In this document: positions 1,202-24,764 of the stretch, in pieces
Numbering within the stretch: the stretch's first letter is position 1
How the letters are laid out: every line of letters begins with the position of its first letter
Virus record (IMG/VR): IMGVR_UViG_3300037264_001076
Coordinates: 1-27,962 of that record
Source of the DNA: a virus
Reading direction: 5' to 3' (one strand)
Length of the DNA stretch: 27,962 bases
Translations under genes and position numbers: made by a program
Notes under the pieces: model-generated
Told to the model about the DNA's origin: nothing
Seen by the model: the letters and a program-made list of their open reading frames with translations, nothing else
Database searches by the model: none

Positions 1202-1662
1202 TGGCGGTCACGGGCGTCACGATCACGGGCATGGACGAGGTGCTCCGCAACCTCGCTGCGTTCGGAGAGAATACGCGCGCGGCTGCGGCGCAGGCGCTGT
1301 TCGAGGAAGCGAACGCGATCAAGAACGAGAGCCAGGCGCGCTACGTCCCGGTGGACACTGGCGAACTCCGGCAAGAGCACGCTTTCGTGGACGAGGCGGC
1401 GAGCATCTCTGGCGGTAGGGTGTCGATCACGTTTGGCTACACCGGGCCATACGCGGCCAGCGTCCACGAGAACCCGCGCGCCGGCAAGACGGGCGGTGTG
1501 AGTCCGAGCGGGAAGAAGTATCGGCACTGGGCGACGACCGGCGGGTTCAAGTTCCTCGAGATCCCGCTGCTCAATGCCGAGCGCGGAATGCTCGGACGGA
1601 TGGCGGATCGGATCCGAAACGGGCTAGGCGGAAGGCTCGCGGCTACCTTCTATGGTGAGTGA
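1201..1662 (+). CDS. HK97 gp10-like neck/tail-completion protein
   Basis: A 153-residue protein whose ATG shares one base with the preceding TGA. It has the hallmark of the HK97 gp10 family: an N-terminal G-M-D-E-V-L-R-N-L helix, an Ala-rich helix, then YVPVDTGELRQEH at about residues 49-61 and a YAASVHENPRAGK segment at about residues 79-91. Members act at the head-tail joint or in tail completion. Length is typical. The stop overlaps the start region of the next gene. Confidence is high because the PVDTG(E/A)LR and Y(A)xxVHE motifs are both present and correctly spaced. Confidence 0.85.
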   Translation: MAVTGVTITGMDEVLRNLAAFGENTRAAAAQALFEEANAIKNESQARYVPVDTGELRQEHAFVDEAASISGGRVSITFGYTGPYAASVHENPRAGKTGGVSPSGKKYRHWATTGGFKFLEIPLLNAERGMLGRMADRIRNGLGGRLAATFYGE

Positions 1663-2081
1663 TGCTGCTGGACGACATCGCGAATCATCTGAGTACGTCA
1701 GTCAGCGGGCTCATGATCGGCGTGAACCTGTGGAAGATCCCAGTCCCAGAGACGGCGTCGTCATCCGCGATCCAGGTTTCCATCGTGGAGTACGGTGGAC
1801 GGCCGGCGATGCGGTCCATGGGGCCGAGCGCCGGCGCCCCAGTCGCGGAGATCAGCCGCTTCAACGTGGGAGTCTACGGCCAGCTCAGCGACTTCCAGAA
1901 CACACGGACGATGGCCGAAGACATCTACTCGACGCTGGACTACTTGAGCGAGACGACGCTGAGCACCACGCGGTATCTGCACGTGCGGGCCTTGCAGCCG
2001 CCGATCCACTTCGCGCCAGACGACGAGAACGCCCAGCATCGCTTCAGTTTGAACTTCGAGGCCATGAAGGTCCGAGGGTAG
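1662..2081 (+). CDS. putative tail terminator / minor capsid-type protein
   Basis: A 139-residue protein. I place the start at ATG 1662, which overlaps the previous TGA by one base; a GTG one codon upstream (1659) is also possible. It opens with LLDDIANHLST and shows alternating beta segments and VGVYGQLSDFQNTRTMAEDIYSTLD at about residues 68-92 (described by its motif ends VGVYG and MAEDIYSTLD). This resembles phage minor capsid/tail terminator proteins (PF12691-like), which cap the end of the tail tube. Its position just before the tube genes fits the terminator role. Confidence 0.65.
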   Translation: MLLDDIANHLSTSVSGLMIGVNLWKIPVPETASSSAIQVSIVEYGGRPAMRSMGPSAGAPVAEISRFNVGVYGQLSDFQNTRTMAEDIYSTLDYLSETTLSTTRYLHVRALQPPIHFAPDDENAQHRFSLNFEAMKVRG

Positions 2082-2100
2082 TGAAGAAGGAGAACGAAAC

Positions 2101-2526
2101 ATGGCGATCGTAGTCAGCTACAACGCCCAGGTGCTCGTGAACAGCGTGGATCTCTCGGACCATTGCGTCGGCGTGATCGTCAACGATGGTCAGGAGAGCC
2201 GCGATGTGACTGCGATGGGCGATCAGTCTCGACGCTTCCGCGCCGGCCTCGGCACGTCTTCGATCGAGGCGACGTTCTGGGGCGACACGGCCTCGGGATC
2301 GGTGACTCAGACCTTGACCGGGCTCATCGCCCTGAGTTCGACCGGATTCCCTGTTACCGTGCGCAAGGACAACGCGGCGCGCAGCGTGAACAACCCCGAG
2401 TACTCTATGACCGCCATCATCGATGGGGACGTGAACGCGCTGGACGAGAAGCCCGGTGAGGTGAGCCAGCTCAAGGTCAAGTTCATGCCGTATGACGCCT
2501 TCAACATCTACACCAGCTCCTCGTAG
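2101..2526 (+). CDS. major tail tube protein (short paralogue)
   Basis: A 141-residue protein with a strong ribosome-binding site (AAGGAG, 2085-2090) before ATG 2101. It opens with an SVDLSDHCVGVIVNDGQESR segment, continues with RRFRAGL and closes with DEKPGEVSQLKVKF. These are typical of siphovirus tail tube subunits with a beta-sandwich core and flexible loop. Such proteins polymerise as stacked hexameric rings around the tape measure. The next gene is a clear paralogue with near-identical N- and C-terminal blocks. The intergenic space has its own ribosome-binding site, consistent with high expression. Confidence 0.85.
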   Translation: MAIVVSYNAQVLVNSVDLSDHCVGVIVNDGQESRDVTAMGDQSRRFRAGLGTSSIEATFWGDTASGSVTQTLTGLIALSSTGFPVTVRKDNAARSVNNPEYSMTAIIDGDVNALDEKPGEVSQLKVKFMPYDAFNIYTSSS

Positions 2527-2549
2527 GGGGCCGTTGAGGAGGCGAACAG

Positions 2550-3335
2550 GTGGCGATTCAAGTATCGTGGGACGGATTCATCTCCGTCTCTGGAACGGAC
2601 CTCTCCGATCACTGCGTTCAGATCCTGCTGAACGACGGACAGGAGTCTAGAGACGTAACTGCGTTCGGTGACACGTCGCGCAGGTTCCGGGCCGGTCTGG
2701 GCCTAGCCTCGATTGAGGCGACGTTTCTCAACGACCTGTCCACGGGCTCGATCGAGAACACGCTCCGGACGCATCTGCTGTTCCAGAACGAGCCAGGGAC
2801 CAAGACGCCGGCATCGGCGCCGACCGCCGCGCTGTCGGGCTCGACCGGCAACCTGATCGCCGGAGCGTACCGGTACTGGCTGACCTACACCTTCCCGGCC
2901 TTCGAGACGGCGCCCTCGACGTATGCCTCCGTGACGGTTGTCTCTGCCACGTCTGGCGAGGTGGCCCTGACGGCGATCCCGGCGAGTACGGAGTGGTTCG
3001 TCACTGGCAAGAACCTCTACCGCAGCATCGCGGGGGGCGGATCGACCACGGGCGTCCTGCTCGCCTCGATTGCGAACTCCGCGACCAGCTACCTCGATAA
3101 TGCATCGTCCTCGAGCCTAGTCGGGAATGCGGCGCTCAACTTCATGTGGCAGCCGAGCGCGTTTGACGTGATCGTGAAGAAGCACGACACGGCGACCTCG
3201 ACCGACAATCCGGCCTGGACGCTCGAGGCGCTGATCACGGACGATCTGAACGTGCAAGACGAGAAGCCCGGCGAAGTCTCTCAGATGAAGGTGAAGTTCA
3301 CGAAGCATGGCGCATTCAGTGTGGCGACCGCCTAA
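2550..3335 (+). CDS. tail tube paralogue with inserted Ig/FN3-like domain
   Basis: A 261-residue protein with GTG start 2550 behind GAGGAGG. Residues 1-81 and about 197-261 match the preceding tail tube protein almost block for block (DLSDHC, NDGQESRDVTA, SRRFRAGLG, SIEATF, then DEKPGEVSQ and KVKF). Between them lies an insert of about 115 residues beginning SAPTAAL and including AGAYRYWLTYTF and LYRSIAGGGSTTG. That pattern is typical of beta-sandwich (Ig/fibronectin III-like) domains in phage virion proteins. It may form a mixed tube, a specialised ring, or a tube that displays surface domains. Paralogy is seen directly; the fold of the insert is inferred. Confidence 0.85.
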   Translation: MAIQVSWDGFISVSGTDLSDHCVQILLNDGQESRDVTAFGDTSRRFRAGLGLASIEATFLNDLSTGSIENTLRTHLLFQNEPGTKTPASAPTAALSGSTGNLIAGAYRYWLTYTFPAFETAPSTYASVTVVSATSGEVALTAIPASTEWFVTGKNLYRSIAGGGSTTGVLLASIANSATSYLDNASSSSLVGNAALNFMWQPSAFDVIVKKHDTATSTDNPAWTLEALITDDLNVQDEKPGEVSQMKVKFTKHGAFSVATA

Positions 3336-3356: not shown

Positions 3357-3797
3357 ATGGCGAAAGAGTATTACGTCGAGCTCGGGGGGAAGAAGCGTCT
3401 GCTGCGGTACACGCGGCAGGAGCGCGTAGAGATCGAGAGTCGCTTCGACTGCGATATCAAGGACTTCGTCTACGCGAAGGCGTTTCCGCTCGTAGACGGG
3501 AAGCCCACCCTCGGCGGCCGGATCGAGTGCCAAGAGGCGTTGATCTTCTATGGCCTGCGGCACAGCGGGCCGAAGGTCACCGAGGATCAGGTGTCGAAGT
3601 GGCTACAGGAGAAGATCGAGGCCGGCGGCTCGATCTACGAGCCGCTGTCGCACGCGATCATCGGGCTGCTGGCGAGTGGGGTGATGGGGTGGAATCCTCC
3701 GTTAGCTGAGGCTGAGGAAGAGGCCGACGAGGGAAAAGAGAAGGCCGGGGACGAAAAGGTTCCAAGGGTCGTGGAACCGATCAAGAGAACCGGCTAG
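3357..3797 (+). CDS. tail assembly chaperone, short form (gpG-like)
   Basis: A 146-residue protein starting at ATG 3357 with AGAAAGGA upstream. The N-terminal 100 residues are a mixed alpha/beta domain (YYVELGGKKR, then RQERVEIESRF); the C-terminal tail is Glu/Lys-rich and disordered. Position between the tube and tape measure genes, plus a lambda-like slippery heptamer (3731-3737) near its 3' end, identifies it as the G-type tail chaperone. G proteins bind the tape measure and recruit tube subunits, and are absent from mature virions. A fraction of ribosomes should shift -1 to make the longer GT product described separately. Confidence 0.85.
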   Translation: MAKEYYVELGGKKRLLRYTRQERVEIESRFDCDIKDFVYAKAFPLVDGKPTLGGRIECQEALIFYGLRHSGPKVTEDQVSKWLQEKIEAGGSIYEPLSHAIIGLLASGVMGWNPPLAEAEEEADEGKEKAGDEKVPRVVEPIKRTG

Positions 3798-4123
3798 CGG
3801 CTGTTCCACTCAAGGAGTTCGAGCGATGGATGGACGACATAGCTTCCGAGCTCCAGATTCCCCCGTGGCAAGCCAACCGATTTCAGCCGGCCGAGTTGTT
3901 CACGCTGATGCGCGGGCGTCAGCGGCAGTGGAACCGGCAGTGTCTGCTCACGGCCTGGAGCACGTACATCATCGCGTCGGCGTTCGGGGCGTTCGAGCAC
4001 ATCAATTTCTCGATGTTCCTCGAGCGGTACTCGCCGCCGGGGTACGTGCCGGAGAAGCAGCGTGAGCGCGCCAAGCCTGCTGATCCTGGGCGCGTTGTTG
4101 CTGGCACAGTCCGAGGCCGGTAA
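3357..4123 (+). CDS. tail assembly chaperone, frameshifted form (gpGT-like)
   Basis: Zero-frame reading from 3357 to 3737 (127 codons), followed by a -1 shift and reading from 3737 to 4120, gives a 255-residue fusion ending at TAA 4121-4123. The -1 frame is open from 3716 and continues through RLAAVPLKEFERWMDDIASEL into a T-like domain containing SELQIPPWQANRFQPAELF and an Arg/Trp-rich helix. A separate start at ATG 3830 is possible but lacks a well-spaced ribosome-binding site. The layout matches lambda G/GT, where the T part contacts the tube protein. The shift is inferred from sequence, not measured. Confidence 0.8.
3731..3778 (+). promoter_or_regulatory. -1 programmed ribosomal frameshift site
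   Basis: The heptamer GGGAAAA at 3731-3737 lies exactly in the X_XXY_YYZ phase of the G-frame (G GGA AAA), so both tRNAs can re-pair after slipping back. It is of the same type as the lambda GGGAAAG site. A 7-bp hairpin follows: GGTTCCA at 3758-3764 with TGGAACC at 3772-3778. It starts 21 bases downstream, farther than the usual 5-9, so its role in stimulation is uncertain. Confidence 0.85.
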
Positions 4124-4493
4124 ACCTATCTCCAAGGAAGTGGCGAAGCCGATTGAACTGTATACTTCAGCAGAGATGTATCGGGCTTGTGTCGATGCAT
4201 TGCTTATCGAGAGCCGTGCGAGGCGAGAATACATTGAACGTCCCGGGCCAATGACGCGGCTTCGCAGGCAGGAAGCGGTAGCGGCTCGCGAGGCTGCGGA
4301 GGGAATTGGTATTCTGCTTCGGCTCGATGAGGGTGCGCAGTTAGAAGTGTCGTCCAATCCTGGTCAATGCTCCGTGCCGGATGCGGACAAGGCCACGCCC
4401 AAGATGCTTCGTGTTCGGATTACCAGCGGGAGCGATGCTGGCAAGATCGGGTGCGTGGTGGCGTCCATGCTCCGTGATCCGGTGGCGTTCTAA
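4062..4493 (+). CDS. exported small protein with signal peptide, unknown function
   Basis: A 143-residue protein with GTG start 4062 inside the 3' end of the GT frame (62-base overlap). The first 19-20 residues form a signal peptide: short N-region, hydrophobic LLILGALLLA core and a likely signal peptidase I site after SEA. There is no lipobox Cys. The C-terminal 40 residues, with VRITSGSDAGKIGCVV, resemble a small SH3-like beta fold. Codon use is visibly more AT-rich than the flanking tail genes. Export is unusual for a tail assembly gene, so it may act in the host envelope, for example in superinfection exclusion. The next gene starts at the last base of its stop (TAATG). Confidence 0.7.
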   Translation: MSAPSLLILGALLLAQSEAGKPISKEVAKPIELYTSAEMYRACVDALLIESRARREYIERPGPMTRLRRQEAVAAREAAEGIGILLRLDEGAQLEVSSNPGQCSVPDADKATPKMLRVRITSGSDAGKIGCVVASMLRDPVAF

Positions 4494-7400
4494 TGGGCGA
4501 TGTCAACCTCGGATCTGTCAAGGCCAAGCTAGAGTTTGACGCCTCTGGTGTAGAGCAGGGCGTCAGCAAGATCACCAATGCGCTGAACCTTACGCGGGAT
4601 CAGATCGTTGCGTTGGCAAATGCTACAGAGAGCCAGCGCGTCAAGATGATCGCGGCCTTTGAGGCAGTAAGCAAGGGAGCAACTCAGGCAGCGCAAAGCA
4701 CGGCGCAGTGGACTGAACAGGCACAGCGCGCCGCGATGCGGATGAGCGCAATGCATTCTGAAGCGCTCAAGATGAACGCAGGATTCGACCGATCTGCGCA
4801 AGCGGCAACTGGATTCTCAGTTGGAATGGCAGCCATGGCTGCTGGGATCACGATTGCAATAGGGGCAGCCATAAAATTCGGGTCAACGCTAGCTGGTCTG
4901 GTCGCGGATGTCGCACGGTACTCCGAACAGATAGACAAGATGGCGAAGGTCACGGGCCTGTCTACAGACATGATCCAAGGTCTTGGCAAGGCCGCACAAG
5001 AGACAGGCACTAACTCTGAAGTATTGGTCAGGGCCGTAGCTAAGATGGAGGCTGCGATCGGGAACGACAGCAAAGCCATTAAGGAAATGGGGCTGTCGCT
5101 GACGCAACTGAAGAACGCCAGCCCAGAGGAAATGCTTCGCATCGTCAGTACGCGGCTCCTATCGATGACAGACGTAACGGAGCGGAATGCCGCAGCACAG
5201 AAGCTTTTAGGGCGCGCGTACATGGATGTCCTGCCTGCTCTCGAACAATACGCAGTGAGTGCTGATCGCTACGTGAACCTGAGTAAGGAGCAGATCGCAG
5301 CCGGGAAGGACATGGACGATGCACTAGATGCGATCGGCACCGCATGGAAGGAACTCGGTCAGCAGATCGGGGCTGCGTTGAATACTCCAGAAGTACGCGA
5401 GGCGCTTAGGAGCCTGGCATCTAGCATTCGCGAGATGGCCTTGGCGGTAAAGGATAGCCACGGCCCGATAGCGGGATTCTTCCAAGCCATTGCCACCGGG
5501 GCGCAAAATGCAGCGAAGTGGTTTGTCTTTCTCAGTGGCGCAATGGACGGAATGAAAGAGCGTATGGCCTCGCTCTCTAAGGACACGCCCGGAGCCATTG
5601 CCCGTGGGATGGAAGCACTCGACGCATTCGACAAGCGTGTAGCTGCGGACAAGAACAAGGCGTGGGGACGGGAGATGTTTCCGTCTCTGTTTGAGCAGCC
5701 AACTGGCGGCGGGGGTGGAATCTCCAAGGAACTGCAGTCCGAGATGGACAGTCTCTCGGGAGCGAAGGCACAAGCTGAGGTAGACAACATCGCCGCAGCG
5801 TTCACGGCTCTACAGAAGAGTGGACGTGCTACTGGCGTCGATCTGGACGATCTCGGCAAGCGGCTAATCGGTCTTGCCGAGAAGGGCGCGAAGATCCCGG
5901 ACAGCCTACGTCCTGCGATCCAGGCGTTCGCGCAGACGGCAGCGATGAAGGGCGTCCCGCAGTTGGCCGAGAAGGCGTTGGACGAGATGACGAAGAAGGC
6001 CGAGGGCAACATCGCCAAGCAAGCCGCCCTGAAGATCAAAGGATGGAAGGAAGACGAGAAAGCCGCCGAGGCGAACGCGAAGGCTCTCATAGCCATCGAC
6101 AGAAGCAGGAGGGACATTCTGCAGCGGATGTTGCAGGACGAGACGCTCTCGATACGCCAGCAGTACGACATCAGGCGGGCGCAGATTGCCGTTGATGCAG
6201 ACCTGGAAATCGATCAACTGCGAAAGCGGCAGATTGCCGCCACCGATCCGGCCATCATCGCCGCGATAGAGGCCGAGATCGCCGCATGGGAACGGCTTGC
6301 CGCCGCAGAGATTGAGGCCACATTTGAGGCTCAGCGATACGCACAAGTCAGCGCACTGTTCAGGGATTTCGGGGACATCCTCAACGGCATAGCAGACGTG
6401 TTCGATGCTGTCGGGATCAGCGCCGACTCCACGCTGGGCGGGATCGTATCGGGGCTACAGACTGCCACGGCGGCAGTCCAGAATTTCGCGGCGCAGACGA
6501 CAACCGCCGGGAAGATCGGCGCCGGCTTGAGCGCGGTTGCCAGCATCTACAAGACGGGCCAGGAAAAAGGTAAAGCCGCCGGTATCGCATCTGGAGCATT
6601 AACTGGAGCGGGAATCGGCTTCATGGTGGGCGGTCCTGTCGGTGCCGCAGTCGGTGCGGTGGCAGGCGCGGTTGTCGGCCTTGTCGGGGCTCTGAGGAAG
6701 CCAGAGTACAAGAAGATCATGGAGGACGTAGGCAAGTCTTGGGGGGTGAATATCTCTCAGGGCCTCGCCAAGGAAATCGAAGCCATAGCCAAGACGCACA
6801 ACCTCAGCCGCACGATGGCCTCGCTCTTGGCTACATCGAAGATCATGGGCGAGTCCGGCAAGGATCCCCGCGAGTTCACCGGCAAGATCAACGACCTGAT
6901 GAACGCTATCGCCTCCGGTGCGGTCCCCGCCAAGGAAGGGCTCGCCGAACTCGGCAAGGCGTTCACGATGGTCGCCGATGCCGCCATCGCAGCCGGAACC
7001 GTGGGCGACAAGGCCATGGTCGGCCTCCTCAAGCGGGCTCGCGAACTCGGCCAGGTCACGCCCGAGATGAAGGCGTTTGTAGGCGCGCAACTGGACAGCG
7101 CGCTCGCCGGGATCAACAAGTACGTCGCAGCCATCAAGAAACTAAACGACTCAGCGACGACAACGCCAGAGAGGCTCGCGGAGATAGGTAAGACGTCGGG
7201 CATCGTGTTCGGTGCAATGTTCGACGCGATGGTGTCTGAGCGCGGCATCGTCGGCGCCGTGGACGCCATGAAGGACAGCTACAACACGCTCCACGAGACG
7301 CTGACGGAGACGCTTGGCCCGGAGGCCGTGTCAGCAATCCTCGGGCCTTTCGGTGGCGCCTTCGCCACGCTCCAAGACGAAACCTTGCGCCCGATCTTCG

Positions 7401-8170
7401 AGGGGATCGACGGTATCACGCAGGCGATGATCGGGCTGGCGAATGCCGGCTACCTGTCAACGGATCAGTTCGTGGCGATGCAGGATGCCACAGCCCAGCT
7501 CTTCGATGAGGCTGTGGCCGGCGGCGCCGACATGCGAACCGCGCTTCTGGCCGTGGCGCCCGGCATCCAGGCTGCGATATCTGCGGCCGAGCAGTTTGGC
7601 GTCCCGCTTGACGCGGATATGGCTCGCCTGAAGGCGCTGGCCGACCAGAATGGGATCACGTTCAAGACCGACCCCCAGATGGCGATGCTCGACGTGCTCG
7701 TCAGCATCGCGCAGGTGCTCGGTGCCGATGTGCCCGCGAGCGCACTGCGGGCGAAGCAGGCCATGCAGGACTTGGCGAGCTCGGTCCCGAACGACCTCAA
7801 CGTGAATGTCAACGTGAACCGGAACTACACCGAAAGCGGCGGCGGTGGTGGCGAGACATTCATTCCACCCTATGAGGGCGGCGGACCGATTGAACCATAC
7901 GAAGGCTTCCAGCACGGCACGGGTGGATTCAAGGACTTCGGGCCGGGCACGCCAGTCGTACTTCATGGCCGCGAGGCTGTCGTCACGGAGAAGCAAGCCG
8001 CTTCGATGGCTGGCCCGAGCCTGACATTCAACCCCACGTTCAGCAACGACCCGCTCATGTCGAATGAGTCCCGCGCCGAACTGACTCAATACCAGATCGA
8101 GGAGTTCGTCCGCCAGGTACGGAGCAACACGCTGTTCCAGCAGATACTCCGGGATCAGGGGTTGCGGTGA
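4493..8170 (+). CDS. tape measure protein
   Basis: The largest gene in the window encodes 1225 residues. It shows the tape measure pattern: an Ala/Gln-rich helical N-terminus, hydrophobic segments near residues 105-140 (GMAAMAAGITIAIGAAIKFG) and about 700-730 (Gly/Ala/Val-rich), and long charged helical stretches at about 490-610. The C-terminus has FQHGTGGF, PVVLHGREAVVTEKQA and a long helix. The protein sets tail length; at the usual ~1.5 angstrom per residue it predicts a tail of about 180 nm. The first third looks less GC-rich than the rest, suggesting mosaic ancestry. The stop overlaps the GTG of the next gene. Confidence 0.95.
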   Translation: MGDVNLGSVKAKLEFDASGVEQGVSKITNALNLTRDQIVALANATESQRVKMIAAFEAVSKGATQAAQSTAQWTEQAQRAAMRMSAMHSEALKMNAGFDRSAQAATGFSVGMAAMAAGITIAIGAAIKFGSTLAGLVADVARYSEQIDKMAKVTGLSTDMIQGLGKAAQETGTNSEVLVRAVAKMEAAIGNDSKAIKEMGLSLTQLKNASPEEMLRIVSTRLLSMTDVTERNAAAQKLLGRAYMDVLPALEQYAVSADRYVNLSKEQIAAGKDMDDALDAIGTAWKELGQQIGAALNTPEVREALRSLASSIREMALAVKDSHGPIAGFFQAIATGAQNAAKWFVFLSGAMDGMKERMASLSKDTPGAIARGMEALDAFDKRVAADKNKAWGREMFPSLFEQPTGGGGGISKELQSEMDSLSGAKAQAEVDNIAAAFTALQKSGRATGVDLDDLGKRLIGLAEKGAKIPDSLRPAIQAFAQTAAMKGVPQLAEKALDEMTKKAEGNIAKQAALKIKGWKEDEKAAEANAKALIAIDRSRRDILQRMLQDETLSIRQQYDIRRAQIAVDADLEIDQLRKRQIAATDPAIIAAIEAEIAAWERLAAAEIEATFEAQRYAQVSALFRDFGDILNGIADVFDAVGISADSTLGGIVSGLQTATAAVQNFAAQTTTAGKIGAGLSAVASIYKTGQEKGKAAGIASGALTGAGIGFMVGGPVGAAVGAVAGAVVGLVGALRKPEYKKIMEDVGKSWGVNISQGLAKEIEAIAKTHNLSRTMASLLATSKIMGESGKDPREFTGKINDLMNAIASGAVPAKEGLAELGKAFTMVADAAIAAGTVGDKAMVGLLKRARELGQVTPEMKAFVGAQLDSALAGINKYVAAIKKLNDSATTTPERLAEIGKTSGIVFGAMFDAMVSERGIVGAVDAMKDSYNTLHETLTETLGPEAVSAILGPFGGAFATLQDETLRPIFEGIDGITQAMIGLANAGYLSTDQFVAMQDATAQLFDEAVAGGADMRTALLAVAPGIQAAISAAEQFGVPLDADMARLKALADQNGITFKTDPQMAMLDVLVSIAQVLGADVPASALRAKQAMQDLASSVPNDLNVNVNVNRNYTESGGGGGETFIPPYEGGGPIEPYEGFQHGTGGFKDFGPGTPVVLHGREAVVTEKQAASMAGPSLTFNPTFSNDPLMSNESRAELTQYQIEEFVRQVRSNTLFQQILRDQGLR

Positions 8171-9558
8171 GTTTCTCGGGCGAGTTCGCGGCTGAGGCTC
8201 AGGCCAACCCGAACGACCTGGCGGTCGTGTGCGAGATCACGCTGAATGATGCGACATGGAATGTCGGATCGGATACCGTTCCAGCATTGACGACGGCGAT
8301 GAACTTGTCCGACCGGGCCGTGCGCGCCCGCACCCGAGCTTACGATCCGCGTGTGGTCAGGGGTGGATGGACGGGGCTACGCCAGCAGATCGAACTGCGC
8401 TCCGCTGGTCTGTCGGGCTACGCAACGTCAGTGACGGTCGGCGATCCAGACAACCGTGTGCGCGATGCGCTGCTCAACGGGGACAATCGGCAGAGTGCGG
8501 CCGTGATCCTGCGCGTGGTGCCGGGATCGGATGACGACTACGACACGCGCTTCACCGGACTGCTGGATTCGTGGGAGTTCATGACGGGCCAGGTGCGATT
8601 GAACCTGAAGACCGACGAGCGGAATTTGAGGGCACACTTCCCGGCGTGGCCATACCTCAAGAGCGAATGGTTCCAGATGGATCCGGCGTTCGATCGGAGT
8701 TATGCGGCGATCGTGTACGGGAAGCATGACAGCACGGCATTGAACCTGAATCATGGGATGGTGCCGACGGTGCCGGTGTGGCTCGGCGAAAACTCATGGC
8801 GCGCGACGAACATCGGACCTGCGAGCTACATCAAGGATGTCTACGTGACCGCCAGTACCACCGTCACCAAGCAGACCGACACCACGGACTACAACAAGGT
8901 CTACGGCTCTCTGGCCGGCGGGAAGATATTCACGATAGTCGAGTTCATCAACTTCCCGAGCACCGACACAACCGTGACGGCCGACCTCTATGGCTATCCA
9001 TTGACGACACCGGGCGTGTTCACCGGCGCCGACGTCATCACGAATCCGGTGACGCAGCTACGTCATTTCCTCGTCAACTTCGCAGCCAACCGGACGCGCG
9101 GTTACATTACAGGCGCATGGGACATGACCGACAACCTGTTGGATACGGCGTCCTGGGATGCGGCTGCGACATGGGCAAACAACCACGGCCTCGAGGGGTC
9201 GCGCTTCATGACGGATCAGGCCACGGCACTTTCCACGATCCGCGAATGGTGCGAGTCCTTCCCGATGTTCCGACCCTTCTGGAATACGGCGGGCAAGGTC
9301 GAGATGTGCGTGCTGAGCGCCGAGTGGCCCGGTTACTGGGACGGGACCAGCCCCATGATTCGACGCGAGGATACGATCGGTAGCGCGTTCCAGTACAGGC
9401 TCGACTCAAGCGACATCACCAGCAAGATCAGCGCGGCTTACCTGCGCGACTCGGTGGACAACAAGTTTCTGAGGATGCTTGACGTGGAGGATCCAACGAC
9501 CGGGGAGCTCGAGGATACGTCAATGCAGATGTTCTGGGCGCCCTCGAGGCAGACATGA
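8167..9558 (+). CDS. minor tail protein (distal tail/tail-tip)
   Basis: A 463-residue protein with GTG start 8167 overlapping the tape measure stop by four bases. It is predicted to be mostly beta. An early region contains VTVGDPDNRVRDALLNGDNR and a TGLLDSWEFMTGQVRLNLK segment (about residues 132-150), a repeat-like strand pattern found in tail-tip and baseplate hub proteins. Being the first gene after the tape measure, it most likely forms the distal tail or hub ring. No enzymatic motif, peptidase or lysozyme domain is visible. The exact family is not recognised, so only the tail-tip role is proposed. Confidence 0.75.
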   Translation: MSFSGEFAAEAQANPNDLAVVCEITLNDATWNVGSDTVPALTTAMNLSDRAVRARTRAYDPRVVRGGWTGLRQQIELRSAGLSGYATSVTVGDPDNRVRDALLNGDNRQSAAVILRVVPGSDDDYDTRFTGLLDSWEFMTGQVRLNLKTDERNLRAHFPAWPYLKSEWFQMDPAFDRSYAAIVYGKHDSTALNLNHGMVPTVPVWLGENSWRATNIGPASYIKDVYVTASTTVTKQTDTTDYNKVYGSLAGGKIFTIVEFINFPSTDTTVTADLYGYPLTTPGVFTGADVITNPVTQLRHFLVNFAANRTRGYITGAWDMTDNLLDTASWDAAATWANNHGLEGSRFMTDQATALSTIREWCESFPMFRPFWNTAGKVEMCVLSAEWPGYWDGTSPMIRREDTIGSAFQYRLDSSDITSKISAAYLRDSVDNKFLRMLDVEDPTTGELEDTSMQMFWAPSRQT

Positions 9559-10031
9559 TACGGCAGGGCGTCAAGCTTCACGGGCGCTTCCATTTCCAGC
9601 ACTATCGATCCGGGACATTGATAGACGACCGCATCGTGAAAAACCTGATCGTAGATGCGGGAGCGGCGGCCGTGGCAGGACTCATCATCCAGACGGGTTC
9701 TACGTCGCCATTCTCCTATATTGCCATCGGCACCAGCACCACGGCGGTGGCATCATCTGACACCGCCCTTTACGCTGAGATGACCACTGCTGGCGGGCAG
9801 CGAGCACTCGCCACGCTCAGCCGGATCACCACAGACGTCACGAACGATACGGCGCAACTCGTCAAGACGTTTACCTTCTCGACGACCGGGACGTATCCGA
9901 TTGTCGAAGCGGGCGTCTTCGACTCGTCAGCCACATCATCGGCGACGATGCTGTGCCGGCAAATCTTCACGGCGATCAATGTGGTAGACACGGACACGCT
10001 GCAGGTAACGTATCGCCTGGACATAGACTAG
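9555..10031 (+). CDS. small tail-tip / tail fibre-domain protein
   Basis: A 158-residue protein starting at ATG 9555 (ATGA overlap with the previous stop). It contains KNLIVDAGAAAVAGLI at about residues 29-44, YIAIGTSTTAV, and ALYAEMTTAGGQRA, and ends in LQVTYRLDID. This arrangement is a recognisable beta-rich domain of phage tail-tip and fibre proteins, often annotated as tail fibre or minor tail protein. It probably oligomerises at the tail tip. It sits among larger minor tail genes and has no catalytic motif. Confidence 0.7.
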   Translation: MIRQGVKLHGRFHFQHYRSGTLIDDRIVKNLIVDAGAAAVAGLIIQTGSTSPFSYIAIGTSTTAVASSDTALYAEMTTAGGQRALATLSRITTDVTNDTAQLVKTFTFSTTGTYPIVEAGVFDSSATSSATMLCRQIFTAINVVDTDTLQVTYRLDID

Positions 10032-16539: not shown

Positions 16540-16764
16540 TCATGGGAGCTCGCTACAGGGGCCGATCACGTATTCGTAGAGCCCCGGCTCGAGCTCGCGC
16601 ATGGTGTAGCAGTCGCCGGATGAAGCGAATGTCCGATGTCCACGAGTGCAGAATGACTCTGGCAGGTTTCGGGCACGCTTGAGTAAATACTCGCGCAAGC
16701 ATGCCGCGCCCGATCCCGGGCGGGCATCGCGCAGCATGTGAAGCTGGTGGTCAAGATGCAGCAT
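16540..16764 (-). CDS. small protein, unknown
   Basis: A 74-residue protein, ATG 16764, overlapping the preceding gene's TAA by one base (TAATG). It begins with MLHLDHQLHMLRDARPG and a short helix REYLLKRARNLPESF. The C-terminal half is beta-like (YTMRELEPGLYEYVIGP). It is translationally coupled to the radical SAM-GNAT-methyltransferase gene and could therefore assist it, but no domain is recognised. Confidence 0.6.
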   Translation of the reverse strand: MLHLDHQLHMLRDARPGSGAACLREYLLKRARNLPESFCTRGHRTFASSGDCYTMRELEPGLYEYVIGPCSELP

Positions 16765-18950
16765 TACAGTCTACCGATCTTTGCGTAGCGGTCGGTTATC
16801 TCGGATGTGCTGCCCTTGTAGGCCACGATGATCTTCTGCTCGCGCTTCGGGAACTTCCGCGTATTCAGCGTGACCTTTGCTTGGGCCAGCCGCGTGAATT
16901 CACCTTCGAGGTAGACGATTCTGTTGTAGATGCTCAGGCCTTGGCCCCGCAGGAACAGCTCCGTCTCGGCCTCGGAACAGTGGTAGGCGCCCTTCCCGTC
17001 ACGGCTGTCGCCGGTCATCACGACGAAAAAGCATCCGTCGTTCAGGTGCGCGATTGCTCTCGCGTAGCCAGCAAACAACGTGTCGCGGAACTCATCGTAG
17101 GTAGCAAGCGAATTGATCTCGCCGGCCGGCGGCTTCCCGTCGTAGTCGAGGTACTTCTCGACCTTGTAATAAGGCGGGCAAGTGAATATCAGATCGAACA
17201 TGCCCTCTGGTTCGTAGGTCGAACTGTCGGACTGTTCCCATGTCACGCCCGTGAAGTCAGAACAGAGCAGGTTGTTCGCATCGCACTGGTTCTTCCGTAT
17301 CTCGCTCGCCAGGTATTCGTAGCCGTAGGAGCCAGCGACGTAGCCGAACTGGACGCCACCGCCGAAGGGGTTATAGATGCGCCGGCCATCGCGTGGCATG
17401 AAGAAACGCAGCACCACTTCACAGGCGACCGAGTCGAGTACCGATGCGTTCCCGTTGTGCGCGTGCCCGGTGACCACGTTGGCGAATCCGTTCGTCCCCT
17501 GCCAGCAGCCGTCGCGCGAGGCGAACATCGGGTTTGGGATGTCGCGGGCCTTACCGGTCGCCTCGATCTTCTCACGCCAGTCTTTCTTGAGCGTCAGCCA
17601 CATCCCTCGCGTCGAATCCCATACGTTCGTCATGGTGATATGCGCGAGAAGCTTCAGCCGTGAATCGGCAGCCGTGCCACGGCACATGTAATGGAACTCG
17701 CCCATCTTCAGGTAGGTTTCGAAACCAAGGGATTCGAAAAGCTTCGGTGTCTCGAACTTTGACTTGGGGTCGGTGGTCATGAAGCATGGATAGCCTGACG
17801 CATTAGCTCGGTCTATCACCTGCTGTACCATCGAACAGTAGAGCTCGGTCGTATGCAACTCGGGCTTGATGACGGACTGTAACAGACAGAACTCCCGAAC
17901 CTCATCGTTTACCTGGAATGTCATGAAGCCGGCGAAGGCTTCGTCGATGAGCAAGATGATCGCGGAGTGAATCTGCATGTTCTTCCGCGCGGCCCTGTGA
18001 GCGATTCCGTCTTCGAGGGCGAGCGTTGCTACGGCTTGCTCGTATCCAGAACCAATGACGCTTTTGACGTACTGGAACTCCACCTTACGCGAGAACAGTT
18101 GCTTCTGCGTCATCGTGATTTGCTCCCCCCCAGGGACGCCACATTGATCCGGGCAGTTGGCGCATTGCCCGATGTAAATTGATGGGTTGTGCAGTGATAC
18201 CAGCTTGCCGCCGCCTATCGAACCGTTACGCCGCGTGAGCGTGATCTGTCCGCTCTGCGCTAGCCGATGGGCTTTCGTCGCTCGAAGTGGATTGTCTATG
18301 ATCGGCGCGAGCGAGAGCAGATATGCCTGCTTCTCTCGCAATTCGGGTGACGTGAAATCACAGGTGACGACACGACAGACGCTCGTGACGCCGCCATCAC
18401 GTAGGCGGTCACGCTGCTGGAGTCGGTGCCTCAGTTCTGCCTCGGTGTCGAGGGCGCTGATAGATGTGTTGACTACTGCGCCCAACTCTCGGAGCGCGTC
18501 AATCTGTTCATTGTCCAACGCCAGCCAGTGCTTCGTTACGATGACCGGGGTCTTTTTAGTATGCCGGAGCGCTCGCAGCGTCGATAGCGTCCCGGACCAG
18601 TCATGGCATGGATCACCAGCCGTGCCGACGCGATACCAGGACACGGGGATATCATTCATCATCCGGATGAGCGTGCCCCGATGCTCGCGGCCGTGGATGC
18701 GCCGGCTCACGCTCACGGTGAAGTCGATACCGTAGCGAGCCGCAGCCTTGGCCGCATAGCACTCACCGTAGCAGCCACCGATCGGATACGCCGCCATGCC
18801 TCGGGTGCAGCCCTTCACCGTGTCGATATCGAGGCATCCCTTCCCGTTCTCCACCACGGTCAGCACCCCAGAATAGCGGCGCGGCACAACGGGCGGTAGC
18901 TCCACCGCCACCATCCAATCGAAGAGCCTTGCCGTCTGGCGGAACTTCAT
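16764..18950 (-). CDS. radical SAM-like / GNAT (Mom-like) / DNA methyltransferase fusion
   Basis: A 728-residue protein, ATG 18950; an upstream ATG at 18977 lies inside the promoter and is less likely. Domain 1 (about 1-280) has clustered Cys (GCTRG and GGCYGECYAAK: C48, C60, C64) and a TIM barrel-like run including YRVGTAGDPCHDW and TPVIVTKHW. It ends with CANCPDQC (C263, C266, C270). This fits a radical SAM enzyme with an auxiliary cluster. Domain 2 (about 285-425) resembles a GNAT fold, with VIDRANASGYPCF and LFESLGFE, possibly Mom-like. Domain 3 (about 440-728) has NPFGGGVQFGYVAG (SAM motif I, about 527-540) and FTCPPYYKVEKY (motif IV, about 589-600) of DNA amino-methyltransferases. A DNA base hypermodification role is inferred. 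Confidence 0.75.
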   Translation of the reverse strand: MKFRQTARLFDWMVAVELPPVVPRRYSGVLTVVENGKGCLDIDTVKGCTRGMAAYPIGGCYGECYAAKAAARYGIDFTVSVSRRIHGREHRGTLIRMMNDIPVSWYRVGTAGDPCHDWSGTLSTLRALRHTKKTPVIVTKHWLALDNEQIDALRELGAVVNTSISALDTEAELRHRLQQRDRLRDGGVTSVCRVVTCDFTSPELREKQAYLLSLAPIIDNPLRATKAHRLAQSGQITLTRRNGSIGGGKLVSLHNPSIYIGQCANCPDQCGVPGGEQITMTQKQLFSRKVEFQYVKSVIGSGYEQAVATLALEDGIAHRAARKNMQIHSAIILLIDEAFAGFMTFQVNDEVREFCLLQSVIKPELHTTELYCSMVQQVIDRANASGYPCFMTTDPKSKFETPKLFESLGFETYLKMGEFHYMCRGTAADSRLKLLAHITMTNVWDSTRGMWLTLKKDWREKIEATGKARDIPNPMFASRDGCWQGTNGFANVVTGHAHNGNASVLDSVACEVVLRFFMPRDGRRIYNPFGGGVQFGYVAGSYGYEYLASEIRKNQCDANNLLCSDFTGVTWEQSDSSTYEPEGMFDLIFTCPPYYKVEKYLDYDGKPPAGEINSLATYDEFRDTLFAGYARAIAHLNDGCFFVVMTGDSRDGKGAYHCSEAETELFLRGQGLSIYNRIVYLEGEFTRLAQAKVTLNTRKFPKREQKIIVAYKGSTSEITDRYAKIGRL

Positions 18951-18956
18951 GCCGAG

Positions 18957-18985
18957 AGTATAGGCCAAAAACGCCATCTTGACAA
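18957..18985 (-). promoter_or_regulatory. promoter for the fusion gene (leaderless start)
   Basis: Minus strand -35 TTGTCA (18985-18980), 17-base spacer, -10 TATACT (18962-18957). ATG 18950 follows six bases later, so the transcript should begin at or next to the start codon. The -35 box overlaps the opposing promoter's -35 box. Confidence 0.7.
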
Positions 18986-23764: not shown

Positions 23765-24015
23765 GCACACAGACCAGAATCGAGTTCACACCCCTAGCAA
23801 GCCGCGTGTCTCAGCAGCGGCAGGGGAAGCGCGAGCGGATGCTGGCCCGGCTGCGGCAAGGCCCGGCAACGACGTGGGAAATGAACCAGATAGGTGGCTC
23901 TGGCTTTAGCGCCAGAATCAATGAGTTGCGGGTAGAACTGCGGAAACGAGGCGGCGATATCATTTTTGTGCCTCTGGGAGAAAGCGGTACGTACAAGCTG
24001 GAGGAGCAGGAGTGA
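23761..24015 (+). CDS. winged helix-turn-helix domain protein
   Basis: An 84-residue protein, ATG 23761 (ATGA overlap). Residues about 20-80 follow the pattern of the phage HTH_39-type winged helix: QRQGKRERMLARLRQGPATT, then INELRVELRKRGGDI and a beta hairpin ending GTYKLEEQ. Such proteins are common in phage early regions and are presumed DNA-binding regulators. It directly precedes the cytosine methyltransferase with a GTGA overlap and might regulate it or bind DNA with it. Confidence 0.75.
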   Translation: MSTQTRIEFTPLASRVSQQRQGKRERMLARLRQGPATTWEMNQIGGSGFSARINELRVELRKRGGDIIFVPLGESGTYKLEEQE

Positions 24016-24764
24016 CCCAGTTGGTGCTCTCGCTGTTCCCAGGTATCGGGCTTCTGGACATGGCCTTTGAGGAGGAGGGCTTCTGCGTGGTGCGCGGGCC
24101 GGATCTGCTGTGGGGCGGGGACATCCGGCACTTCTGCCCGCCGGTCGGCCGCTTCGATGGCGTGATCGGGGGGCCGCCGTGCCAGGCATGGAGCCGTCTC
24201 CGGCACATCGTCGAGGCGAACGGTTACAAGACGGCGCCCGACCTCATCCCACAGTTTGAGCGCGTCGTAGCCGAGGCAGAGCCACTCTGGTTCGTCATGG
24301 AGAACGTGCCGGCTGCGCCAGTGCCGAAGATACCGTCGTTCGCGGTGTCGGATCGGCTGATCGAAGACGCGTGGGTAGGCGGGGTCACGTCACGCCTTCG
24401 CCGTTTCTCGTTCGGCGGCACAGCCTACTACGCGCCACGATTCCTCGAGCTTGCCGGGCCACACCGTGAGCCCGAGCATTCCGCCTTGGCATCGGGGGGG
24501 GGGCGCCCGGTCCCGGTCGCGGTCGGCGGCAGTGGAAAGGTCAAGCGCAGCGCAAAGAGCGTCCTGAAGAACTACGGGTACAAGACGGCGGACGCATTCC
24601 GGGAGCACCTCCGGAAGCAGGGCCTCCCGCCTTGGTTTGATCTGCCGCCGTTCACGGTGTCGGCGAAATTCGCGGCGGTCGGCAACGGCGTCCCGCTCCC
24701 GATGGGCCGCGCCATAGCCCGAGCGGTCAAGACTGCGCTGTTTGCTGAGGAGCGGGCCGAATGA
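24012..24764 (+). CDS. C5-cytosine DNA methyltransferase
   Basis: A 250-residue protein, GTG 24012. Core motifs of C5-MTases are in order: LFPGIGLLDMAF (motif I, residues 8-19), GGPPCQAWS (motif IV, 53-61, catalytic Cys57), ENVP (motif VI, 97-100), SRLRRFSFG (motif VIII-like) and VGNGVPLPMG (motif X). It adds a methyl group to cytosine C5 using SAM. At 250 residues it is short for the family (usually 320 or more), with a small target recognition region near residues 140-215. No cognate nuclease is nearby, so it probably protects phage DNA. A run of ten G (24494-24503) sits inside the coding sequence. Confidence 0.9.
   Translation: MTQLVLSLFPGIGLLDMAFEEEGFCVVRGPDLLWGGDIRHFCPPVGRFDGVIGGPPCQAWSRLRHIVEANGYKTAPDLIPQFERVVAEAEPLWFVMENVPAAPVPKIPSFAVSDRLIEDAWVGGVTSRLRRFSFGGTAYYAPRFLELAGPHREPEHSALASGGGRPVPVAVGGSGKVKRSAKSVLKNYGYKTADAFREHLRKQGLPPWFDLPPFTVSAKFAAVGNGVPLPMGRAIARAVKTALFAEERAE
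24494..24503 (+). repeat. G10 homopolymer in the methyltransferase gene
   Basis: Ten consecutive G encode part of SALASGGGRP. The reading frame is intact at this length. Such a tract is prone to slipped-strand changes. Confidence 0.9.
24746..24760 (+). repeat. 15-bp direct repeat, copy 1
   Basis: The sequence TGAGGAGCGGGCCGA just before the ATG of the 72-residue gene. The second copy lies at 24977-24991. It contains GAGGAG and so also acts as a ribosome-binding site. Confidence 0.85.

Follow-up and report, generated by a model that had tools for sequence, protein, structure and literature searches.

Background

Tail tubes that mix plain and decorated subunits are already on record, as are decoration domains inside the subunit, fused double tube proteins and genomes with two major tail protein genes. 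In SPP1 the plain gp17.1 and the decorated gp17.1* share one tail at a ratio of 3:1 (PMC7666168), and lactococcal 936 phage PhiC0139 combines MTP with MTP-TpeX in a mixed tube on which the decorated subunits form a spiral (PMC4759559). Both rely on one gene: a translational frameshift adds a C-terminal FN3 domain in SPP1, and a +1 frameshift a C-terminal extension in PhiC0139. Here we describe another arrangement, found in the IMG/VR virus record IMGVR_UViG_3300037264_001076 (27,962 bases, probably a fragment; this whole stretch is called the window). It carries two full tail tube genes in tandem, A and B, and the long form is not a frameshift product of the first gene: B is a complete second gene whose extra domain is internal.

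Internal decoration has precedents. In Pseudomonas phage JBD30 the decoration domain of gp44 (residues 88-175) begins just after the peripheral helix (77-83), much as in B (PMC11445458). Unlike the window, however, JBD30 has a single tube gene (between gp43 and the chaperone), and its domain is a solved Ig-like fold whereas the insert of B is modelled at low confidence. YSD1_22 of Salmonella phage YSD1 likewise has a beta-sandwich domain (domain2) between alpha1 and beta4, but is one protein with an extra C-terminal Ig-like domain, and its insert is described as folding onto the neighbouring subunit (PMC8718954). An earlier sequence-only reading of the window had contrasted B with lambda gpV, in which the Ig domain is C-terminal. 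The contrast is true, but makes B look more exceptional than it is: an internal domain is unusual but not new, because JBD30 gp44 and YSD1 carry one at the matching place.

Two major tail protein genes per genome, as in the window, are reported for Gordonia cluster DJ and Microbacterium cluster EL (PMC12859696, PMC11080557), but there the extra residues are C-terminal and the genes are partly separated by another gene. The available portion of the cluster DJ paper reports the two tube genes without giving their function, and the annotated major tail proteins of these clusters had no Pfam match in five of five scanned. Three major tail paralogues are found by BLASTP in the cultured Microbacterium phages DizzyRudy (L130, 2783-6803), Count (L131, 6016-8948) and Camille (L132, 2907-6405), the middle one reaching 586, 215 and 410 amino acids, respectively, through C-terminal additions. 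Our searches of the open PMC library, which leaves subscription papers outside, turned up neither a complete second tube gene that carries an internal domain nor stacking loops matched within genomes.

The reading that we favour, at a probability of roughly 55%, is that A and B together build a single siphophage tail tube, to which B would add external domains.

Two tandem tube genes under purifying selection

The elements on which the comparison is based are the following.

2101 to 2526, plus strand: gene A, plain tail tube protein; ATG start, 141 amino acids, PHROG 4574
2550 to 3335, plus strand: gene B, decorated tail tube paralogue; GTG start, 261 amino acids, PHROG 4574
2787 to 3155, plus strand: insert of B (residues ~80-202), a putative beta-type domain; block missing from A
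2182 to 2247, plus strand: A residues 28-49, beta2-beta3 (hinge) loop, ring-stacking element assigned by topology; 20/22 identical to B
2631 to 2696, plus strand: B residues 28-49, beta2-beta3 (hinge) loop; 20/22 identical to A
2425 to 2463, plus strand: A residues 109-121, loop preceding the final long strand and probable socket for the hinge from the adjoining ring
3240 to 3278, plus strand: B residues 231-243, counterpart of the probable socket loop of A; 9/13 identical to A
2087 to 2092, plus strand: Shine-Dalgarno-like AAGGAG of gene A; pairing energy -8.8
2537 to 2542, plus strand: Shine-Dalgarno-like AGGAGG of gene B; pairing energy -12.0

Both proteins match PHROG 4574 'major tail protein' (E 7e-10 for A, 1e-5 for B). 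With BLASTP, 46 of the first 72 residues are identical (64%, E 1e-30) and so are 28 of the last 59 (47%), a likeness on both sides of the insert that, judged from these alignments, is far beyond chance. Three related contigs were found: L005 and L090 have the complete pair in the same order, while L004 is cut, opening within the final codons of A and carrying B. The sequence-only reading had proposed tandem tube paralogues, both genes intact; its coordinates were exact, and both genes are whole in the window, L005 and L090.

In a tree of the tube domain the B proteins cluster (support 100/99), and A and B together form one clade (95/88) with the plain tube of locus L010 next to it (100/98); the A group is weaker (91/52) and several branches are long. 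The joint clade indicates a duplication older than the four phages, yet confined to their lineage. Among phage isolates, A matches five Rhodococcus phage records, whereas a tblastn search with B gave no match. Plain tubes of A's family occur in Shagrat, REQ1, Pontimonas phiPsal1 and EBPR siphovirus 6, where the flanking genes are not annotated as a second tube protein. We considered an origin of B by frameshift or read-through and discarded it: the gene starts independently, behind a Shine-Dalgarno site of its own, and the likeness to A begins at the first residue.

The pN/pS ratio (nonsynonymous over synonymous change) is 0.20-0.29 for A (three comparisons), 0.24-0.35 for B (six comparisons) and 0.30-0.45 for the insert alone (six comparisons), values that place both genes under purifying selection across lineages with synonymous divergence (dS) near 1. 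We also compared Shine-Dalgarno pairing energies over 28 hand-picked open reading frames (ORFs) of the window, in which B ranks strongest and A fifth. The site of B is strong in all four loci (-10.2 to -12.0), and sites of A and B are strong in every locus, with weaker ones for the chaperone, terminator and tape measure genes. This fits, and is supportive of, high expression of both genes.

These observations bear on the reading in which a single protein works, B being the tube and A surplus or differently used (or the reverse), so that virions would contain one only. Both proteins are known here from their genes, which leaves this reading some room; intact genes with strong ribosome-binding sites of their own, kept by selection over such distances, make it the least probable of those we weighed.

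The tube fold is predicted to persist around the insert

The models of A and B both have the tube beta-sandwich with a peripheral helix and a long beta2-beta3 loop. For A (mean predicted local distance difference test, pLDDT, of 69) nine PDB hits have E <= 0.001, all of them tail tubes (phiCD508, diffocin, monocin, R4C). The model of B has a lower mean pLDDT (59), with ten-residue blocks at 68-88 over residues 11-80 and 201-260. Against PDB chains it reaches Z-scores up to 12.3 (Sf11 tail), with lambda gpV among the top rows. In its ten best rows 122-133 residues are matched, from residue 2-4 to 261 and thus spanning the insert. The question whether the insert breaks the tube fold, raised by the sequence-only reading, can therefore be answered from the prediction: the fold appears to be kept on both sides.

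B is longer than A by 120 residues, close to the ~115 estimated from sequence. As had been proposed, the block (about residues 80-202) is internal to the subunit; it lies between the peripheral helix (68-76 in the model of A, 68-79 in that of B) and the next strand (83-88 in A, 205-210 in B). The proposed Ig/FN3-like pattern, on the other hand, could not be confirmed. A Pfam scan of the insert of the window's B had no match, its pLDDT is 35-45 (below 50), and profiles from the PDB gave three weak matches (including 9vel_C, Gp6.1, E 0.003, and 8jov_A, E 0.039) from which no fold was obtained. Two of the four insert members weakly match an unrelated viral polymerase model in Pfam, taken as noise.

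Compared with the inserts of the other three B proteins, that of the window has 69-71% identity. In 3,662 open frames of at least 70 amino acids (the window plus the loci then in the set), its profile picks out the four B proteins, repeat copies of these, and nothing else. Matches to PHROG 511 (E 3e-7), 8040 and 17680 point weakly to other virion proteins as its relatives.

A and B are most alike in the ring-stacking loop

In described tubes the beta2-beta3 loop joins successive rings. In JBD30 the hinge loop (42-62) reaches into the adjoining ring, where loop 217-227 is one of those on either side of it (PMC11445458), the ring-docking loop of SPP1 is 40-59 (PMC7666168), and the long beta2-beta3 loop of R4C docks in the same way (PMC10276861). 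In the models, residues 28-49 of A stand at the topological place of the JBD30 and SPP1 loops, and A loop 109-121 is equated with JBD30 loop 217-227 as the probable socket. A profile comparison with JBD30 gp44 (hhalign) found no alignment, so these loop equivalences rest on strand order.

A and B of the window are identical at 20 of 22 hinge loop positions and 9 of 13 socket positions, against 45 of 94 elsewhere (Fisher 3e-4). The same pattern is seen in L005 (19/22, 13/13 and 42/94; Fisher 7e-7) and L090 (20/22, 10/13 and 48/94; Fisher 3e-4). When A is compared with 22 outgroup tubes, identity is 42% in the hinge loop, 15% in the socket and 37% in the rest. Using wider loops and a circular-shift null, the A-B excess is reached by 8, 1 and 2 of 129 shifts. 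On these alignments A and B are most alike in the loop that stacks the rings, which we count as a new observation.

Among the least alike elements are strands beta2 (2-3/6 identical) and beta5 (2-4/9). This matters for an obligate hetero-ring in which A and B would alternate (A3B3), so that two separate genes would do the work of a fused double tube protein. Such proteins are described for P74-26, where a duplicated, fused tube protein makes trimeric pseudohexameric rings (PMC10034513), and for T5, where pb6 has a duplicated tube domain (PMC8718954). In R4C, strand beta5 pairs with beta2 of the next subunit (PMC10276861). Since these two strands differ between A and B and pair across subunits, rings need not mix at random. 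Nonetheless, the strand numbering of R4C and of the model of A is equated by order only, and a locus with two nearly equal plain copies (L024, see below) needs no alternation; we regard the hetero-ring as improbable.

Loop matching recurs in other plain-plus-decorated pairs

Distant relatives were fetched, giving 86 loci with a tube hit. Two tube genes are present in 7 of the 86, and five of these seven belong to the 53 loci whose flanks reach 1 kb or more on each side. L001-L003 (copies of the window) and L091-L092 (repeat contigs) were left out of this count; L090 lies outside the 86-locus set, L004 is cut, and L006 had no tube hit. Outside the window clade, one of the seven, L024 (3322-4160), has two tandem, near-equal plain tube genes of 139 amino acids each (loop 22/22, rest 74/96 identical), by its sequence a plain duplication without decoration. 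In four others (L010, L048, L075, L089) a decorated protein with a C-terminal domain is encoded just upstream of the plain tube gene; the decorated proteins of L048 and L089 had no match among phage isolates.

PHROG 9522 'major tail protein' (a 241-position profile) is matched by three of three whole decorated proteins scanned from such pairs. Like B, this type is a decorated tube paralogue adjoining a plain tube gene, but its domain is C-terminal and its gene upstream, whereas in B the domain is internal and the gene downstream. At L107 (2501-3274) a decorated protein of this type is split into two ORFs (a 130-amino-acid tube part and a 123-amino-acid C-terminal domain), and the plain tube gene comes next; this could mean a separable domain or a frameshift.

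Scans with these decorated proteins yielded 31 loci with such a pair, of which 18 are distinct after removal of identical or >85% identical pairs. L118-L121 (a single tube hit without partner) and L129 (81 bases of match only) were set aside as non-pairs. Going by these genes, plain-plus-decorated pairs occur in several groups of uncultured phages.

The loop limits had been fixed beforehand on the window pair and were then applied to the 18 pairs. Loop identity is 0.60 with the partner from the own genome and 0.34 with partners from other genomes (reached in 0 of 20,000 permutations), and the excess is larger in the loop than in the rest of the protein in 17 of 18 pairs. Plain proteins compared among themselves have a loop identity of 0.41 and decorated ones 0.36, both below the 0.60 between paralogues of one genome. 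Outside the loop the proteins look like any old paralogues (plain-plain 0.44, decorated-decorated 0.32): ranked on that part, 36 of 36 proteins have their nearest row among those of their own kind, while ranking on the loop puts the paralogue from the own genome nearest for 13 of 36.

The first four pairs (L010, L048, L075, L089) had been inspected by eye ahead of the first test. For the 14 pairs that were added once the loop had been defined, the values are 0.64 (own) and 0.37 (other). An unguided sliding window over 12 of these 14 later pairs gives an own-genome excess of 0.20-0.30 at residues 25-56, against 0.12 at 21-32, about 0.1 at 69-84 and at most 0.06 elsewhere.

Recent gene conversion as cause of the loop match is unsupported: codons for the same residue differ equally often in the loop and elsewhere, both in the window pair (13/20 loop, 15/25 rest) and in the 18 pairs (119/234 and 222/424), which gives no sign of recent DNA exchange. 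An old, saturated conversion is possible.

Mixed tube or special ring

The simplest reason why two drifting proteins keep the same loop is that they share a docking socket within one tube, and the loop match thus suggests co-assembly, which predicts it. A common assembly chaperone, bound by both, could produce this pattern too, but would still mean that they assemble jointly. For the window lineage, where the likeness extends to the probable socket, A and B should be able to stack either way round, and this favours a mixed tube.

Several observations weigh against this reading. Under the circular-shift null with strictly model-defined loops, the A-B excess is not significant (24, 19 and 23 of 129 shifts reach it), and part of the A-B likeness may reflect recent duplication. 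In the 18 pairs the rest of the protein also has a very small own-genome excess (0.24 against 0.22; 8 of 20,000 permutations), and the socket loop is barely matched (0.40 against 0.35), as would be expected if the decorated protein were one ring at the tube end. The loop-matching test in cultured Microbacterium and Gordonia phages, which have another tube family, gave 1-7 genome-matched columns against 0-2 in crossed controls over five comparisons, numbers too small to count for or against it. The low-copy connector gene at 851 scores -9.5, making ribosome-binding strength a poor gauge of copy number; for this reason we treat the strong sites as supportive of high expression and nothing further.

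The main rival is that A makes up the whole tube and B a single special hexameric ring at one end (by the terminator or the distal tail protein), with the extra domain contacting neck or tip proteins. A precedent comes from contractile injection systems, where the tube initiator layers Alg5 and Alg7 of AlgoCIS have the tube fold, Alg7 with an added domain (PMC8894135), and the 18 older pairs match in the hinge but hardly in the socket, as for a ring that sits on the tube and is capped by something else; here room is left for a single decorated ring at one end. In the window lineage, though, hinge and probable socket are both alike between A and B, and B has the strongest ribosome-binding site of the 28 genes compared. 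The socket argument itself depends on an equation by topology, the profile comparison with JBD30 gp44 having given no alignment. We consider the special ring unlikely, though the most serious of the alternatives. The sequence-only reading had named a mixed tube or a special ring; this was the right pair of readings, and the conserved stacking loop speaks for a single shared tube, with a lean towards the mixture.

For the mixed tube we propose the following course. A would be the plain tube protein, and B would be the product of a duplication within the lineage, with a domain acquired between the peripheral helix and strand beta4 that should hang on the outside of the tube. As both retain the same ring-stacking loop and probable socket, rings of A could stack on rings of B (or A/B rings of fixed make-up on one another), and the finished tail would be a two-subunit tube with the B domain on its surface at intervals. 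The outcome would be akin to that in SPP1 and lactococcal PhiC0139, which use one gene plus frameshifting. A and B would then co-assemble, B would presumably be present in many copies with its domain facing outward, and the domain could have a surface function, for example weak binding to the cell.

More tentatively, and at rather less than even odds, two-component tubes may be recurrent and have arisen more than once. Within a genome both tube proteins would keep the same ring-stacking loop while the rest drifts, so that the loop acts as a shared lock and the alternation of plain and decorated rings patterns the tail surface. The arrangements would then include an internal domain with the decorated gene second, a C-terminal domain with the decorated gene first, and the near-identical pair of L024.

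Neighbouring genes and other features of the window

The pair is flanked by the following genes.

1659 to 2081, plus strand: upstream neighbour, head-tail connector or tail terminator-like; PHROG 2595, E 1.4e-5
3357 to 3797, plus strand: downstream neighbour, chaperone-like tail protein; PHROG 2115 'tail protein', E 1.8e-7
4493 to 8170, plus strand: tape measure protein; PHROG 167, E 3.8e-6

The order connector/terminator, tube, chaperone, tape measure is that of siphophage tails, and it is also found in L090 and, over the part of the contig read, in L005. A short frame (3830-4123, plus strand) follows the chaperone-like gene; in lambda, gpG-GT is made by a programmed frameshift that joins the chaperone gene to the next frame.

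Elsewhere in the window, 9555-10031 (plus strand) matches PHROG 5417 (unknown, E 5e-22) and PHROG 4176 (tail fiber protein, E 4e-11), and the large genes around it had no match in the PHROG profile search at E 0.01. A 737-amino-acid open frame at 16764-18977 (minus strand) overlaps a 320-amino-acid frame on the plus strand (16701-17663), and 24012-24764 (plus strand) encodes a DNA methyltransferase (PHROG 116, E 8e-21).

Conclusions

The shared stacking loop makes the role of the second tube gene testable, as both subunits should be in one tube, and it points to the residues that would decide. If the mixed-tube reading is true, two-gene tubes would offer a natural means of displaying decorated subunits in a chosen proportion along the tail, and the loop would serve as a sequence marker for spotting such pairs in metagenomes.
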